NCBI GenBank assembly: GCA_012523405.1
Contig: JAAYIN010000065.1
Location: forward strand, 1-53,862
Direction of reading: 5' to 3'
Length of the DNA stretch: 53,862 nt
Source: Clostridiales bacterium
GTDB taxonomy: Bacteria > Bacillota > Clostridia > Christensenellales > Aristaeellaceae
In this document: one piece after another, positions 2,249 through 13,697 of the stretch
How positions within the stretch are numbered: the stretch's first letter is position 1
Layout of the letters: the number at the start of each line of letters is the position of its first letter
Program-made: the position numbers and the translations under genes
Notes under the pieces: generated by a model
What the model was told of the DNA's origin: nothing
Database searches by the model: none
The model's input: only the letters and a program-made list of their open reading frames with translations

Positions 2249-2692
2249 TCACTTCACGAGCGAAGGAATATATTCTTTTAAAAACAAAACGGCTTTTTCA
2301 TAGCCTTCAAACCCAAGGCCAGCGATCTGCTTCACACATGCCAGCGCAGGATAGCTAAACTGCCTGAAGCTCTCTCTAACCGAAATATCGCTCAGATGAA
2401 CTTCAACCGCAGGGAGAGCAACCGCCTTGAGTGCGTCCAGAATTGCAACGCTCGTATGCGTGTAGGCAGCAGGGTTGATGACAATGCCGTCCGCCTTGCC
2501 ATATGCACTTTGAATGATATCCACAATCTCGCCCTCATGATTGCTTTGAAAGCATTGCACTTCAATGCCTTCCCGCGTGCACACATCGCCAATCAGCTGC
2601 ATTAGGCTTTCATAGTTCTGTGCGCCATAAATCCCCGGTTCACGAATGCCCAGCATATTCAGATTAGGTCCGTTGATGACAAAGAGCTTCAT
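2249..2692 (-). CDS. aroQ: 3-dehydroquinate dehydratase, type II
   Basis: Catalyses the third shikimate-pathway step, 3-dehydroquinate to 3-dehydroshikimate. The 147-residue product is typical of the small dodecameric type II enzyme. The N-terminal INGPNLNMLG motif is followed by the EPGIYG loop that carries the catalytic Tyr22. NPAAYTHTS holds substrate-binding residues, and VEVHLSD carries the active-site His. It is the last gene of the aro operon and overlaps the 3' end of the aroE-aroK gene by 29 bases, which suggests coupled translation. A terminator follows directly. Confidence 0.96.
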   Translation of the reverse strand: MKLFVINGPNLNMLGIREPGIYGAQNYESLMQLIGDVCTREGIEVQCFQSNHEGEIVDIIQSAYGKADGIVINPAAYTHTSVAILDALKAVALPAVEVHLSDISVRESFRQFSYPALACVKQIAGLGFEGYEKAVLFLKEYIPSLVK

Positions 2693-3911
2693 GATAAGCC
2701 TCCTTAATCGCTTGTGCGCAGTGGTCGGGACGCCCGTTGTTTGAGATTACCGCGTCGGCGCATGCATGATACATCGGTGCACGCTCCACCCACATGATCC
2801 TTAGTGCATCCGCACTTGTTGACAGCGGTCTTCCGTCCATTGGCAGCAAATCCAATTCCCGCGTGATATGCACCACAAAGCCGTTGAGCGACAAATTCTC
2901 GCGGTTTTGCGGGCTCTTCACTGCGCCGCCGCCTGTCACAAGAATGCGTCCGCCTTCACGTCCATAGCGCTCAATCTGCGCCGCCTCTCTTGCCCTGAAG
3001 CCTGCTTCGCCTTCTTTTTGGAATATCTCAGGGATGGATATGCCAGCATCGTGCGCAATTTCTTGATCGATATCGATCAACTCCAATTCCAGCAGCCGAG
3101 CCAGTATATCGCCCATCGTGGTTTTGCCGCAGCCCGGCATGCCGACAATCACAAGGTTCATTGCGCTTTTCATCAGTTCCCGCTCTGCCCTGCGAATCCG
3201 CGCAGGGTCAACCGCTTCGCCTGTGAACAGCTCGCACGCACGCACCGCCTGATACACCAGCATGCAAAGCCCGCCAGCATATGCAATCCCAAGTTCCTCC
3301 GCCTGCTGAAGTAGGCGCGTTTTAAGCGGATTGTAGATCACATCCAAAACGCCCTGCAATCGGGGCAATTCGCGCAGGTCAACCGCCGCCGCATCAGTAT
3401 GAGGGTACATGCCCACAGGTGGGGTATTGACGAGAAAAAGCGCGTCTGTGTGCTTGCCAAGGTCTTCGTATCTGGTTTCCCCGCTGCGAGACACCACAAT
3501 CGCTTCCCCGCCCGCTTCCCTGATCACAGCGCAAGCCGTCAGGCTCGTCCCGCCGCTCCCAAGAACCAATGTTTTCCCCAGCGAGAAATCGATTCCAGCA
3601 CGCCTTGCCATCTCCATGAATCCATAGGCATCGGTGTTATCGCCATAAAGCGTTCCGTCTTCGCGCCCGACAACCGTGTTCACGCATCCAATCCGCTTTG
3701 CCGTTTCTCCCATTTCATCCAGAAACGGGATGACATCACGCTTATATGGAATGGTGACATTGATCCCCGCAAACTCCTTTGCCTGCATGAACTGCGCGAG
3801 CGAGGACTTTGGCATAGGCCAAAGGTCATAGGAGTAATCCGCCAGGAAAGAATGGAGCACCTTTGAATAGCTATGCCCCAGTTTTTCGCCTATCAATCCA
3901 TATTGCTTCAT
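2664..3911 (-). CDS. aroE-aroK: shikimate dehydrogenase / shikimate kinase fusion (AroE-AroK)
   Basis: A bifunctional enzyme of 415 residues. The N-terminal part (about 1-245) is shikimate dehydrogenase: substrate loop LGHSYS, catalytic Lys in NVTIPYKRD (about residue 57), GDNTDAYG with the catalytic Asp, and the NADP fold VLGSGGTS. The C-terminal part (about 250-415) is shikimate kinase: P-loop GMPGCGKT at about 257-264, IDIDQEI, the GGGAV shikimate-binding motif and the DGRPLS lid. The two act on successive steps, so the fusion channels 3-dehydroshikimate to shikimate 3-phosphate. I place the start at the ATG at 3911, five bases after GAGGG, rather than at the upstream TTG at 3923. This leaves 8 bases after the pheA stop. 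The kinase end overlaps aroQ. Confidence 0.95.
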   Translation of the reverse strand: MKQYGLIGEKLGHSYSKVLHSFLADYSYDLWPMPKSSLAQFMQAKEFAGINVTIPYKRDVIPFLDEMGETAKRIGCVNTVVGREDGTLYGDNTDAYGFMEMARRAGIDFSLGKTLVLGSGGTSLTACAVIREAGGEAIVVSRSGETRYEDLGKHTDALFLVNTPPVGMYPHTDAAAVDLRELPRLQGVLDVIYNPLKTRLLQQAEELGIAYAGGLCMLVYQAVRACELFTGEAVDPARIRRAERELMKSAMNLVIVGMPGCGKTTMGDILARLLELELIDIDQEIAHDAGISIPEIFQKEGEAGFRAREAAQIERYGREGGRILVTGGGAVKSPQNRENLSLNGFVVHITRELDLLPMDGRPLSTSADALRIMWVERAPMYHACADAVISNNGRPDHCAQAIKEAYHEALCHQRT

Positions 3912-3919
3912 GTTTTCCC

Positions 3920-5059
3920 TCAAATCTCAGAATAGCTGCCAAGATAGGTAAATACCTCAGGACCTGCATCCAGCTCGCTGAGCAGCTGCAACGCTGCATC
4001 ATCATATACAGACGCATCCAGATCAAAGTAGAACATGAATTCAAAATCCGTTCCCGCAATCGGGCGGCTTTCAAGCTTTGTGAGGTTGAGACCAAGGGCG
4101 GAGAACTTCGCGATCATGCTATAGAGCGCACCAGGCTTATGCTGCACGTTGAGCATGAGGCTCATTTTGTTTGCACCAGGGTAAATCTCGAGTTCTTTTG
4201 CGATGAGGATGAAGCGCGTGAAATTGCTATCGCTGTTGGAAACGGAGGCTTTAAGCACTGTAAGCCCATAGAGCTCTGCACAGGCGGGCGATGAAATCGC
4301 AGCCAAATCCGTGCGTGGGCTATCGCCGACCATCTTAGCCGCGGCAGCGGTATTTTCGCAAACCGTGACCTTAACATCCTTGAGTTGCTTGAGGAATTCG
4401 CTGCACTGCCCCAGACCTTGCTCATGGCTGACGATCTCCTTAATGTCCTCCAGCTTCGTGCCCGGCTTTGCCAGCAGGCGATGATTGATCTTGAGCCTTA
4501 GGCTGCGAACAATCGAGAAGCGATACTTGCGCATCAGGTCATAGACCTCCGTCACAGAACCATAGGAGCTGTTTTCAATGGGCAATATGCCGTAGCGGCA
4601 AAAGCCGCTTTCAATCGCCTGAAAAACGCCCTCAAAACGCTTGAAATACATAATGCTCGGCAATGCAAACATCTTATCACAAGCCTGTTGGCTATATGCA
4701 CCCTCCACGCCCTGACAAGCAACAATGGCCTGCTTGGGGAATACCTTGGGCGTGTTTTCAGTTGCGCGCGCAATATGATTGCTCAGCTCGGTCTTTTGCG
4801 TCATATAGTGCTGCTGATAGCTGCGGCTGATATCAAACACCGTGTTATAAAGCAGCTTCGCATACATCGTCATATCCTCTGGAACCATTGCCGACAAGCG
4901 GTTTAGCACCTCACGCTCACGAGCAGGGTCCACAACGGGCAGATCATTTTCCTTCTTATACTTAGCAATCTCAAGCGCCACGCGCATGCGCGCATCAAAT
5001 GCGCCTACGAGCTGCTCATCAATCTGGTTGATCTGTTCTCTTAAATCCTGAATATCCAT
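3920..5059 (-). CDS. pheA: chorismate mutase / prephenate dehydratase (P-protein)
   Basis: Converts chorismate to prephenate and then phenylpyruvate, the committed Phe branch. The 379 residues split into three parts. An AroQ-type chorismate mutase helix bundle covers about 1-90 (DLREQINQIDEQLV, VALEIAKYK). Prephenate dehydratase covers about 110-290, with GVEGAYS, LPIENSSYGSV at about 159-169 and the catalytic NFTRF. A C-terminal ACT domain (about 300-370) carries KPGAL and the ESRP motif typical of Phe feedback inhibition. The gene sits between aroB and aroE-aroK in the operon. Feedback by Phe through the ACT domain would add to the transcriptional attenuation inferred upstream. Confidence 0.96.
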   Translation of the reverse strand: MDIQDLREQINQIDEQLVGAFDARMRVALEIAKYKKENDLPVVDPAREREVLNRLSAMVPEDMTMYAKLLYNTVFDISRSYQQHYMTQKTELSNHIARATENTPKVFPKQAIVACQGVEGAYSQQACDKMFALPSIMYFKRFEGVFQAIESGFCRYGILPIENSSYGSVTEVYDLMRKYRFSIVRSLRLKINHRLLAKPGTKLEDIKEIVSHEQGLGQCSEFLKQLKDVKVTVCENTAAAAKMVGDSPRTDLAAISSPACAELYGLTVLKASVSNSDSNFTRFILIAKELEIYPGANKMSLMLNVQHKPGALYSMIAKFSALGLNLTKLESRPIAGTDFEFMFYFDLDASVYDDAALQLLSELDAGPEVFTYLGSYSEI

Positions 5060-5101: not shown

Positions 5102-6163
5102 CTACGCGCCAACAGCGATTTGTACCAGTTCGGGTAAATCAGCAATGTCCACACGATGCAGTTCGCATTCGCCAATTCGATGCGGCAGCACAAAGGTCAA
5201 TTGATCCCCTGCGCGTTTCTTATCAGACTGAGCAACTGTGCACAGCATGTCTGGAGTGAACGGTGCTGATGTGGGTAAGTGATTGCGCTTGGTCATATCG
5301 ATGATCTCATCCAGCACATGCGGCGGGCAAATGCCCATACTGACCGCAAGCCTTGTTGCATAGACCATCCCAATAGCGACCGCATGTCCATGAGAAATCT
5401 GATAATTGCTGCATCGCTCAACCGCATGACCCAGCGTATGTCCAAGGTTTAGGTACTGGCGGCTGCCCGTATCCAGTTCATCCTCCTCCACCAGCCTTGC
5501 CTTAGCGCTTACGCAGCTCTCAATCACATGCTCCGTCTGGTCCATCCAATCCGCCGTCGCAAGCAGGTCAAACAGCGGTTTGTTGCCAAGCACGCCGTAC
5601 TTAATGCTCTCTCCTACGCCATCCGCCAAAACATCCGCATCAAGCGACCTCAATGCATCAGGATCGCAAAGGACGAGCTTTGGCTGGCAGAATGCACCCA
5701 CAAGATTCTTTCCTGCCGGCAGGTTCACGCCTGTCTTGCCGCCAACGCTGCTATCCACCATCGCGAGAAGTGTGGTTGGCATCTGCACAAAGGAAATGCC
5801 GCGCAGATAGCTCGCTGCTGCAAACCCTGCCATGTCTCCCACCACGCCGCCGCCAAGCGCAACGATCAAATCAGTTCTGGTCACGCGCTGCTCCGCCATG
5901 TAGTCAAGCATGGTCTGCCATATTTGAAGGTTCTTGTTCTCCTCGCCATGAGGGATCGCAAAGCGGCAAGTGCCAAAGCCCGCATTTTCAAGCGACTGCT
6001 GCACGGTATCGCCATAGAGCGCATCCACGTTATCATCCGTTAGGATCACAGCCGTGCAAGTCTTGCCGAGCACATCTTTGATATACGCTCCGCACTGCGC
6101 CATCAGCCCGCGCTCAATGAGCACATCGTAGCTTTTGCCCACATTCACATGTACTTTTCTCAC
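5102..6163 (-). CDS. aroB: 3-dehydroquinate synthase
   Basis: NAD- and metal-dependent cyclisation of DAHP to 3-dehydroquinate, the second shikimate step. The 353-residue product carries the nucleotide-binding GGGVVGD at 104-110, the MVDSSVGGKTG segment at 135-145, and downstream metal-binding His segments (NLGHTLGHA, SHGHAVAIG). The start is a GTG that shares the overlap GTGA with the tyrA stop, with AAAGGACG about 10 bases upstream. This overlap implies translational coupling to tyrA. Confidence 0.96.
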   Translation of the reverse strand: MRKVHVNVGKSYDVLIERGLMAQCGAYIKDVLGKTCTAVILTDDNVDALYGDTVQQSLENAGFGTCRFAIPHGEENKNLQIWQTMLDYMAEQRVTRTDLIVALGGGVVGDMAGFAAASYLRGISFVQMPTTLLAMVDSSVGGKTGVNLPAGKNLVGAFCQPKLVLCDPDALRSLDADVLADGVGESIKYGVLGNKPLFDLLATADWMDQTEHVIESCVSAKARLVEEDELDTGSRQYLNLGHTLGHAVERCSNYQISHGHAVAIGMVYATRLAVSMGICPPHVLDEIIDMTKRNHLPTSAPFTPDMLCTVAQSDKKRAGDQLTFVLPHRIGECELHRVDIADLPELVQIAVGA

Positions 6164-7008
6164 GGCTCATCGTCCTTTCGGTTTGCTTCTTCCTTATGCT
6201 CCCGGCCCGTGCGAAGCAGCACACGCATCGCCTCTTCGTCGCTTGCCGCGAGTGCATCGCGGTACTTTTGCAGATTTTCCATGAATATGTCCAGCTCGCT
6301 CAGCAGCGGCTCACGGTTGCAAAAGAACAGCTCCGTCCACATATCCTCATTGAGCTTAGCCACTCGCGTCATGTCCTTGAAGCTACCGGCTGAAAAGCCA
6401 TGATGCTCCATTGCCGAAGGGCTGAGCACATATGCGCTTGACACCACATGTGCAAGCTGGGACGTATATGCGATCACCTGATCATGATTCTCGGGGGTCG
6501 TGATCACAACCCTGCCAAAGCCCAGTTCACGCCAGAAATGCTTGAGGAAATCCAATGTTTGGATATCCGTACCCTTGGGCGGCGTAAGGATCATGGAAGC
6601 ATTTTGAAACAGCGTTGCGAGCGCGTGATCAAAGCCCGAATATTCAATACCTGCCATAGGATGACCGCCCACAAAGAGAAAGCCATTCTCATCCGCAATC
6701 TTCCACAGCGGTTCGCAAATCGCTGTCTTCACGCCGCAAACATCAATTACAATCGCGCCTTTTTTGATCAGTGCTGCGTTTTGCTCAACATAGCTGACCG
6801 CCGTCTTTGGCCATGTCGCCACAATCACCATATCGCAAATCGCCAAGCGCTCAGCCGTCAGCTCCAAATCAATCGCGTCCAGCAGCCTTGCCTTATACAT
6901 CACCTGTTCACTAACATCCATGCCTAGCACAGTATGGGGCGTGAGCTTTTTGATGCATTTTGCAATTGAACCGCCAATCAGCCCCAGCCCGACAACTGCG
7001 ATATTCAT
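6160..7008 (-). CDS. tyrA: prephenate dehydrogenase
   Basis: Oxidises prephenate to 4-hydroxyphenylpyruvate, the committed Tyr branch. The product has 282 residues from the ATG at 7008, chosen because GGAGG lies 7 bases upstream and the protein then begins directly with the dinucleotide-binding strand. GLGLIGGS is at 7-14, and the GGHPMAG segment with the catalytic His is near 116. There is no chorismate mutase or ACT domain. The start overlaps the aroF stop by ATGA, and the stop overlaps the aroB start by GTGA, so aroF, tyrA and aroB are coupled. Confidence 0.95.
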   Translation of the reverse strand: MNIAVVGLGLIGGSIAKCIKKLTPHTVLGMDVSEQVMYKARLLDAIDLELTAERLAICDMVIVATWPKTAVSYVEQNAALIKKGAIVIDVCGVKTAICEPLWKIADENGFLFVGGHPMAGIEYSGFDHALATLFQNASMILTPPKGTDIQTLDFLKHFWRELGFGRVVITTPENHDQVIAYTSQLAHVVSSAYVLSPSAMEHHGFSAGSFKDMTRVAKLNEDMWTELFFCNREPLLSELDIFMENLQKYRDALAASDEEAMRVLLRTGREHKEEANRKDDEP

Positions 7009-8030
7009 TGTTTTTCCTCCTTGGACATCTGATATGCGTAGGGAAGAATCGCACGAACGCCATTCATCACGTCTTGGAATGCAGTGGGCGTAAGCGACTG
7101 TGCACCATCGCACAATGCACGCTTGGGATCGTTATGCACTTCGATCATCAGTCCATCCGCGCCAGCAGCTGTTGCCGCAAGCGACATGGGCTTGACAAGT
7201 GCAGAAATGCCTGTCGCATGACTCGGATCAACAATGATCGGAAGATGCGTCATACGCTTGAGCAGCGGAATCGCCGCTAGATCCAGCGTATTTCTCGCAG
7301 CGGTTTCAAACGTACGAATGCCGCGCTCACAGAGGATCACCTGATTGTTACCGCCTGCCATGATATACTCAGCGCTCATCAGCAGCTCCTGCAATGTGTT
7401 CGCCAGTCCGCGCTTGAGGAGAATGGGCTTATTGGTATGTCCAAGCTCCTTGAGCAGTTCAAAGTTTTGCATGTTGCGCGCGCCCACTTGGATCACATCC
7501 ACATCATCAAAGAGATGAAGCTGCGAGAGATCCATGATCTCAGTCACAACGGGCAGCCCTGTCAGCTTCTTTGCAATCAGCAACAGCTCCAGTCCGTGTC
7601 CGCGAAGTCCTTGGAATGCATAAGGGGAAGTGCGCGGTTTGAACGCACCGCCGCGCAGCATCGTTGCGCCCGCAGCCTTCACCGCCGTAGCCACAAGCGA
7701 AATCTGTTCTTCGCTTTCAATGCTGCATGGGCCTGCGATTACGCTGAACACGCCGCCGCCAATCTGCGTATTTCCAACGGGAACCACCGTATCTTCTTCG
7801 TGGAATTTACGGTTTGCATTCTTATAGGGTTCCTGAACGCGCTTTACATCCACAACGATGTCAAGTGCGCGTAACAGATCGATATCCACCATGGTTGTGT
7901 CGCCCACCAAACCAAGGATTGTGTGAATGTCACCCGCCGATTCATGAATGGAGATATTTAAGCTCTTGAGCCACGCCATAAGATTATTGAGTTGCTTCTC
8001 GTCCGGGTTCTTTTTCAGTACAACGATCAT
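7005..8030 (-). CDS. aroF: 3-deoxy-7-phosphoheptulonate (DAHP) synthase
   Basis: First enzyme of the shikimate pathway, condensing phosphoenolpyruvate and erythrose 4-phosphate. The 341-residue product has an N-terminal ferredoxin-like regulatory domain (about 1-66), as in the Thermotoga type I-beta enzymes. This domain is a known site of Tyr/Phe feedback in that group. The barrel follows, with AGPCSIES at 99-106, [12 protein letters not shown], and VDPSHATG near the C terminus. AAGGAGG lies 7 bases before the ATG. It is the first structural gene of the aro operon and sits directly behind the attenuator hairpin. Confidence 0.97.
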
Positions 8031-8057
8031 GTGATTTCCTCCTTCAATTTCAAGAAA

Positions 8058-8088
8058 AAACCCTCACGGCCTTGAGCCGTGAGGGTTT
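8058..8088 (-). terminator. attenuator (leader terminator) of the aro operon
   Basis: On the minus strand AAACCCTCACGGC (8088-8076) pairs perfectly with GCCGTGAGGGTTT (8070-8058) around a TCAAG loop. The T-run at 8060-8055 follows at once. The 13-bp hairpin lies between the leader peptide and aroF, 28 bases before the aroF start. A competing fold is possible: AGG (8107-8105) and GTTTGT (8102-8097) can pair with ACAAAC (8090-8085) and CCT (8084-8082). That fold would remove the 5' arm of the terminator. The leader-peptide stop codon lies within this competing arm. Confidence 0.85.
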
Positions 8089-8105
8089 GTGTTACTACAA
8101 ACAGC

Positions 8106-8201
8106 CTATTCACAAGCACAACGCAAAACAGCCCTACGTGTAAACGTAAAGCTAAAGTAAAAATAATAGGAAGAGCCATTGCATTGATGTAAATTATTCA
8201 C
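8106..8201 (-). CDS. Phe/Tyr-rich leader peptide of the aro operon
   Basis: A 31-codon ORF too short for ordinary gene calling. The GTG start at 8201 follows GGGAGG (8215-8210) at 8 bases. Its centre reads SSYYFYFSFTF, so seven of nine consecutive codons (8168-8142) are Tyr or Phe, and there is no Trp. The TAG stop at 8108-8106 sits inside the strand that could form the antiterminator. This is the layout of a classical leader peptide: stalling at Tyr/Phe codons would leave the antiterminator free, while a ribosome reaching the stop would cover it and allow termination. The regulated operon contains both pheA and tyrA, which matches the codon choice. No T-box motif is present in this leader. 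Confidence 0.85.
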   Translation of the reverse strand: MNNLHQCNGSSYYFYFSFTFTRRAVLRCACE

Positions 8202-8235
8202 AGGCCCGCCCTCCCTTTCGTTATGCTTGTTTGCG

Positions 8236-8264
8236 ATGATAGCACCATCAATGGGGTTTGTCAA
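8236..8264 (-). promoter_or_regulatory. aro operon promoter
   Basis: A sigma-A promoter on the minus strand: -35 TTGACA at 8264-8259, a 17-base spacer, and -10 TATCAT at 8241-8236. The start of transcription would be near 8229, giving a leader of about 200 bases that contains the leader peptide and attenuator. Confidence 0.85.
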
Positions 8265-13445: not shown

Positions 13446-13680
13446 AATAAAAAGCCGCTCACGTCCAAAAAGGACGGAGCAGCTCCGTGGTACCACCTTT
13501 ATTCATAGTGCAATTGCACTACCTCAAAACGCTTTAACGCTCGCTATGCGGCGAAGCTATGGCCCTGCCATTCACCCCGCGCCCTCCTCGGCGACCTTCC
13601 GCAACTTATCCATCCAAACGACCTCTCAGCCAATGAGTCGTTCTCTCTTGGGCGGCAAAAATGCGTACTCCTCCGATTCT
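13446..13680 (-). promoter_or_regulatory. T-box leader (valine) of the valS operon
   Basis: The T-box sequence AAAGGTGGTACCACGG is at 13500-13485 on the minus strand. Its terminator follows: AGCTGCTC-CGTCC (13484-13472) pairs with GGACGTGAGCGGCT (13466-13453), then TTTTTATTT. In stem I the distal helix AACGAC/GTCGTT carries the expected purine-rich bulge, and GGAGTACG gives the AGTA element. A GTC triplet (Val) at 13595-13593 follows GAAG, as expected for a specifier, but I placed it by eye. The downstream valS gene supports valine specificity. Confidence 0.9.
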
Positions 13681-13697
13681 CCGGGCAAATAACGTAA

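Follow-up and report, generated by a model that had tools for sequence, protein, structure and literature searches.

The aroF leader and its operon

The window, by which we mean the whole 53,862-nucleotide stretch of DNA that was analysed, carries on its minus strand an aromatic amino acid operon headed by aroF and preceded by a short leader region (Table 1). The names tyrA, pheA and aroE-aroK fusion were taken from significant NCBIfam matches that lie under the curated cut-offs. The consensus promoter, the GTG-started peptide with its ribosome site and the hairpin with six T ahead of aroF, all described in a first, sequence-only reading of this DNA, are present. The peptide encoded by the leader ORF is MNNLHQCNGSSYYFYFSFTFTRRAVLRCACE and it contains the stretch SSYYFYFSFTF, of which YYFYFSFTF corresponds to leader codons 12-20 (8168-8142) and includes seven Phe/Tyr codons. 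The stem of the terminator is composed of 13 bp, 8088-8076 with 8070-8058 (14 pairs in the scan), three of the six T of the T run (8060-8055) lie within this stem, and the aroF ATG at 8030 is found 27 nt past it. The 199-nt leader folded with z = -6.3 with the terminator included, and none of 200 shuffles was equally stable. In the fold of the free RNA, the leader ribosome site (8208-8216) is paired with 8168-8176, i.e., leader codons 9-12, and in this model such pairing may limit the translation of the leader itself.

Table 1 Positions of the leader elements and of the genes that follow them
Feature	Coordinates	Strand	Details and basis
Promoter, sigma-70-type	8264-8236	minus	TTGACA 8264-8259, 17-nt spacer with TG before the -10, TATCAT 8241-8236; consensus scan, 11/12 matches
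Segment 1, 5' end of RNA	8219..8229	minus	11 bp with 8113-8123; fold and swap test
Ribosome site of leader ORF	8215-8210	minus	GGGAGG, 8 nt upstream of GTG 8201-8199; from sequence
Leader ORF	8201-8106	minus	GTG start, 31 aa, TAG stop 8108-8106; sequence, run kept in relatives
Hairpin P2 within ORF	8130..8153	minus	AGCUUUACG 8153-8145 paired with CGUAGGGCU 8138-8130; covariation
Segment 2, 3' strand of 1:2 pairing, last ORF codons	8113..8123	minus	fold, swap test, competing-helix test
Post-stop helix (inner antiterminator)	8082..8107	minus	8107-8105/8084-8082 and 8102-8097/8090-8085; sequence and swap test
Intrinsic terminator (segments 3 and 4) with T run	8055..8088	minus	consensus scan; covariation
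aroF, DAHP synthase	7005..8030	minus	NCBIfam, above curated cut-off
tyrA, prephenate dehydrogenase	6160..7011	minus	NCBIfam 1.5e-50, under curated cut-off
aroB, 3-dehydroquinate synthase	5102..6163	minus	NCBIfam, above cut-off
pheA, chorismate mutase/prephenate dehydratase	3920..5059	minus	NCBIfam 3.8e-64, under cut-off
aroE-aroK fusion, shikimate dehydrogenase and shikimate kinase	2664..3914	minus	NCBIfam 4.6e-45 and 4.6e-30, under cut-offs
aroQ, type II 3-dehydroquinate dehydratase	2249..2692	minus	NCBIfam, above cut-off

The rival pairing proposed earlier, GTTTGT with ACAAAC and AGG with CCT, could also be found. This post-stop helix takes in the AG of the ORF stop codon and reaches into the 5' part of the terminator arm. 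It forms just the inner portion of the switch: the 5' end of the RNA additionally pairs over 11 bp with the final codons of the ORF, which itself contains a hairpin (P2).

Conservation of the Phe/Tyr run before aroF

The sequence-only reading had asked for a comparison of leaders and had named a Tyr/Phe run unconserved in relatives as evidence against itself; the codon run is in fact kept, at 68 of 107 and 37 of 59 loci in two sets, while the flanking sequence drifts. The strict rule called for a ribosome site with at least 4 matching bases, an ORF of 12-60 codons and at least 6 F/Y in 12 codons. The first set comprised 110 homologous aroF loci, and the 107 with enough upstream sequence were scored. 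The 68 loci with a strict F/Y-run ORF compare with 9 hits among 5350 dinucleotide shuffles; with the threshold raised to 7 F/Y in 12 codons, such an ORF with a ribosome site was present in 3 of 5350 shuffled aroF upstream regions. Among 190 amino-acid pairs, F+Y was the commonest (68 loci), followed by A+F (42) and F+S (40). The antisense strand gave no strict F/Y ORF at the same 107 loci, and within the window 36 regions preceding frames of 200 aa or more were scored, of which one reached 6 F/Y; it was taken to be that of aroF itself. The class-wide set (the class of the source genome as drawn by the search tool) consisted of 60 loci, one per genome, hand-picked from the better-scoring matches listed (282 of 391 genomes with a match). 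Under the strict rule 37/59 loci scored, against 1/59 on the antisense strand and 2/590 shuffles, and under the loose rule 42/59, 6/59 and 26/590, respectively; the two sets are not independent, sharing at least two identical peptides (L179 = L049, L185 = L106). Among more distant aroF, clear leaders were present at 4 of 30 loci (28 genomes) and a loose score of 6 at 7 of 30; for the matches L266, L270, L285 and L286, which began within the gene, the upstream end was an estimate. With clear leaders at so few distant loci, the leader appears to be tied to one large aroF lineage and not to all aroF of the class. The nearest named records carrying aroF are mostly labelled Clostridia, and it is on these labels that the earlier assignment to a clostridial genome rests. 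The relatives with the leader include the cultured Yanshouia hominis (L032). The F/Y-run ORF was also observed before aroF in records labelled Thermoguttaceae, Lentisphaerae, Victivallales, Planctomycetia and Treponema (L047, L055, L059, L066, L098, L101), with a terminator at two of these six loci; transfer, convergence or wrong binning may account for them.

In the genus of the source genome, aroF was present in 16 of the 17 genomes examined, 15 of them with readable upstream sequence, and 13 of these 15 loci have at least 6 F/Y in 12 codons, with 5 at L003. At L014 of the same genus (about 2580-2700, minus strand) the F/Y run and the terminator are kept and no ATG, GTG or TTG opens the frame; the leader may have decayed, initiation may use an unusual codon, or the sequence may contain an error. 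A TTGACA-led promoter was reported at 14 of 16 relatives; L010 also has one, and none was reported for L019.

Loose scoring covered 164 of 170 loci, since L018, L021, L076 and L216 had short upstream sequence and no ORF was scored at L033 and L091, and 128 of the 164 reached 6 F/Y. The 128 leader peptides consist of 18% Phe and 14% Tyr; both residues are present in every one, with at least two of each in 122, and Trp is present in 17. A sub-group of leaders upstream of aroF (L259, L260, L262, L264, L217 and L228, of FSWG..SAG and FYWG..SAG types) carries Trp within the F/Y run, and judging from these codons their sensing might extend to all three aromatic amino acids. A terminator lies 3' of the ORF at 102 of the 128 run-bearing loci versus 5 of 25 loci scoring below 5. 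As for the genes downstream, 78 leader-bearing loci extend for 900 nt or more in that direction; in the stretch examined, tyrA was found at 62 of them and aroB at 66. Each was found as well at 16 of 24 loci scoring below 6 or unscored, so operon content alone is no predictor of the leader.

Among the 128 leaders, the stop follows the last residue of the run at a distance of 3 to 31 codons, and the flanks of the run differ between families; this variable distance and drift match codon counting and not a fixed functional peptide. They also bear on the alternative in which the nascent peptide itself arrests the ribosome in response to free Phe or Tyr. Arrest peptides usually require fixed residues, and the residues KALLRCA behind the run are indeed conserved in the genus, but they are encoded in base-paired, covarying RNA segments, and neither the spacing nor the flanks are constant over the 128 leaders. 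We therefore regard an arrest like that of TnaC, a peptide which reportedly stalls the ribosome in response to Trp, as very unlikely, and prefer the reading in which the codons of the run are counted by the ribosome.

RNA structure, covariation and specificity

The alignment for covariation contained 13 leaders, 12 of the genus and L015 of a sister genus, with L011 (its terminator was missed by the finder), L014 and L019 left out. In P2 and the terminator, 97.5% of the cells are paired, and 9 of the 22 pairs are changed on both sides (3 of 9 in P2 and 6 of 13 in the terminator), which was reached by none of 500 shuffles, slid controls giving 0 to 2. Swap tests on the same 13 leaders showed that native partners beat swapped ones in the 1:2 pairing (327 of 20000 permutations as good) and in the post-stop halves (1 of 20000); for the outer helix, formed with the terminator arm, no significant advantage was seen (1790 of 20000). 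In the three tests, the native partner ranked first in only 2, 3 and 3 of the 13 leaders.

Folds of 24 leaders from other groups often have the codons before the run paired with codons at the ORF end, enclosing a hairpin around the run, and the helix sequences differ from family to family. Over 102 leaders, the 1:2 pairing exceeds that of shuffles (Wilcoxon 3e-10; 23/102 at p 0.05). The competing-helix test, which was devised after these 24 folds had been viewed and is thus partly post hoc, gave mutually exclusive 1:2 and 2:3 helices above shuffles over the 102 leaders (Wilcoxon 5e-5; 17/102 at p 0.05). The window leader beat each of 40 shuffles in this test, and several leaders of the genus did not reach p 0.05 (L006 0.90, L012 0.68, L008 0.54). 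For the same 102 leaders, neither the antiterminator energy gain with a stalled ribosome (median -2.7 vs -3.1, p 0.22) nor the duplex energy with the terminator arm showed any excess over shuffles. We read this as a real antiterminator built of small helices which differ between lineages, through which a switching step would operate. The antiterminator is the weak point of the model: it is supported in the genus, and class-wide one test shows a modest excess and two show none.

Structure within the ORF might also act alone, an aromatic metabolite being bound directly by the RNA and the F/Y codons being a by-product of its folding. The ORFs of 86 loci are on average more structured than codon-resampled versions (mean z -1.09) and P2 covaries, both in favour of this reading; the ORF of the window, taken alone, is not more structured than its resampled versions (z -0.2), and its 1:2 pairing begins outside the ORF. 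The run is, however, a coding feature with start, ribosome site, frame and stop, F+Y exceeds all other amino-acid pairs, the helix sequences vary between families, and no riboswitch or T-box of Rfam matched the leader. For these reasons an RNA-only sensor is highly improbable in our judgement. Short ORFs are common, but a chance ORF ahead of an ordinary terminator devoid of regulatory meaning is a negligible prospect, already contradicted by conservation in relatives, by the enrichment of F/Y ORFs over shuffles, the antisense strand and other gene starts, and by the link of ORF and terminator (102/128 vs 5/25).

In the genus, strong model matches were confined to the region before aroF. When the 17 genomes were searched with a covariance model of the hairpin, spacer and terminator, 15 gave a single strong match, always ahead of aroF; 12 of these 15 are sequences used to build the model, and those in G006, G008 and G010 are not among them. 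There was no model match in G009, where aroF sits at a contig end, and a weak terminator-like match only in G007, the genome without an aroF match. The extra matches L246, L248 and L250 are true aroF leaders; L247, L249, L251 and L257 resemble the terminator only and have no F/Y ORF, and other weak matches exist, many of them in G048. The pattern (TWY)5 occurs at 46 places in the source genome and its reverse at 92, in a survey which passed over places inside frames of more than 75 codons. Among the 46 places, a short ORF, ribosome site and terminator came together in the aroF leader only; at L132 a ribosome site was flagged, but no terminator was seen.

A proposed Phe/Tyr attenuator and its relation to known systems

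As in attenuators, the short leader ORF has its own ribosome site and carries consecutive codons for the products of the operon, and a terminator is placed between this ORF and the first gene. The best reading, in agreement with the sequence-only one, is very probably a ribosome-mediated transcription attenuator before the aromatic operon, predicted from its sequence to sense charged tRNA-Phe and tRNA-Tyr. We infer that the leader is translated, that ribosomes stall on it and that the stall works the switch. When both charged tRNAs are plentiful, the ribosome would run on to the stop codon, where it would mask segment 2 together with the 5' strand of the post-stop helix; the terminator would then form and transcription would stop ahead of aroF. 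When Phe- or Tyr-tRNA is short, the ribosome would stall within codons 12-20 and cover neither segment 2 nor the post-stop helix, so that both could pair towards the 5' arm of the terminator; with this arm engaged, RNA polymerase would continue through aroF-tyrA-aroB-pheA-aroEK-aroQ. If the leader is untranslated, segment 1 would pair with segment 2 and termination would be favoured. Because Phe and Tyr codons stand in one run, shortage of either amino acid should open an operon which encodes the last steps to both.

In Proteobacteria, the pheA/pheST leaders combine a peptide containing the product amino acid with competing hairpins and a terminator, and a proteobacterial survey was reportedly made by Vitreschak and co-workers (2004). 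The aromatic genes of Firmicutes are, in the usual account, controlled by T-box or TRAP. The window leader is like the pheA/pheST leader (RF01859) in its plan of peptide, hairpins and terminator, but that leader relies on Phe alone and precedes other genes, and its model scored 18 bits against the window leader (E 1.2), below the gathering score of 55. The sequence-only reading had fitted the device to the classical pheA/trp-type model, and we also judge the mechanism to be classical; what is new here is the double Phe/Tyr specificity and the breadth of distribution.

The closest published relative that we found is the uORFC-13-1 motif before aroF of Acholeplasma, for which PMC8632094 lists 24 representatives, from Acholeplasma and unknown environmental sequences only, and proposes attenuation via the speed of Phe incorporation. 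Compared by description, the two share the position before aroF, a promoter, a ribosome site, a short Phe-coding ORF and a terminator, but at least one Phe is named for uORFC-13-1 and no Tyr run, unlike in the window. Rfam searches of the window and the leader returned no match named uORFC-13-1. The Leu/phe leader RF01743, which in PMC2864571 is listed as a leader in Lactococcus lactis, a Firmicute, has Phe in common with the window leader but is of Leu/Phe type; neither at the gathering score nor on the permissive list did the window give a match to RF01743. Leader-peptide attenuation in Firmicutes also includes that of His in bacilli (PMC2965389), of the his operons of Peptostreptococcaceae and others (PMC9413887) and of S. 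aureus ilv-leu with a Leu-rich leader (PMC5794164), which work in the same ribosome-mediated mode in place of T-boxes, but for other amino acids and operons. The earlier description of the leader as unusual in Firmicutes has to be qualified: among the closer loci sampled, most have an F/Y leader before aroF, and leader-peptide attenuators of Firmicutes have been published for His and Leu. A full-text literature search, with most subscription papers outside its coverage, found no report of a Phe/Tyr leader in Clostridia.

The T-box (RF00230) likewise senses tRNA charging and acts via a terminator, but unlike the window leader it binds the tRNA directly. The source genome has 15 T-box matches, eight of them over the Rfam cut-off, and none of the 15 precedes the aro operon. 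The only Rfam match of the window at gathering score is a T-box leader of 98.8 bits before valS (13467-13690, minus strand). Behind ten of the matches, profiles identified two TrpX-like transporter proteins (below cut-off), trpD, a TrpB-like enzyme, pheS, aspS, metG and three less certain genes; ileS, serS, proS and thrS behind T-box matches were named by eye. The matches L141, L145, L147, L150 and L151 precede trpD, pheS, the TrpB-like gene and the two TrpX-like transporter genes. The leader has no Trp codons, as was observed at the outset, and this would be explained by the Trp genes of the genome following T-box matches; Trp would then be left to T-boxes.

The wider proposition, on which we are evenly divided, is that of a widespread and perhaps ancestral Clostridia attenuator before one large aroF lineage, which would sense Phe and Tyr in a single stall window (and all three aromatic amino acids in the sub-lineages with Trp in the run), with T-boxes taking Trp and the synthetases, and with leader and aroF co-evolving. 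If true, two systems of RNA sensing would divide the labour within one pathway. A leader family is named here that Rfam 15 does not report in the window, and over a hundred natural variants of one attenuator may serve as material for studying the evolution of such switches. A ribosome sensor of Phe and Tyr before most of the closer aroF loci would alter the T-box and TRAP picture of aromatic gene control in a large group of bacteria from gut and rumen.
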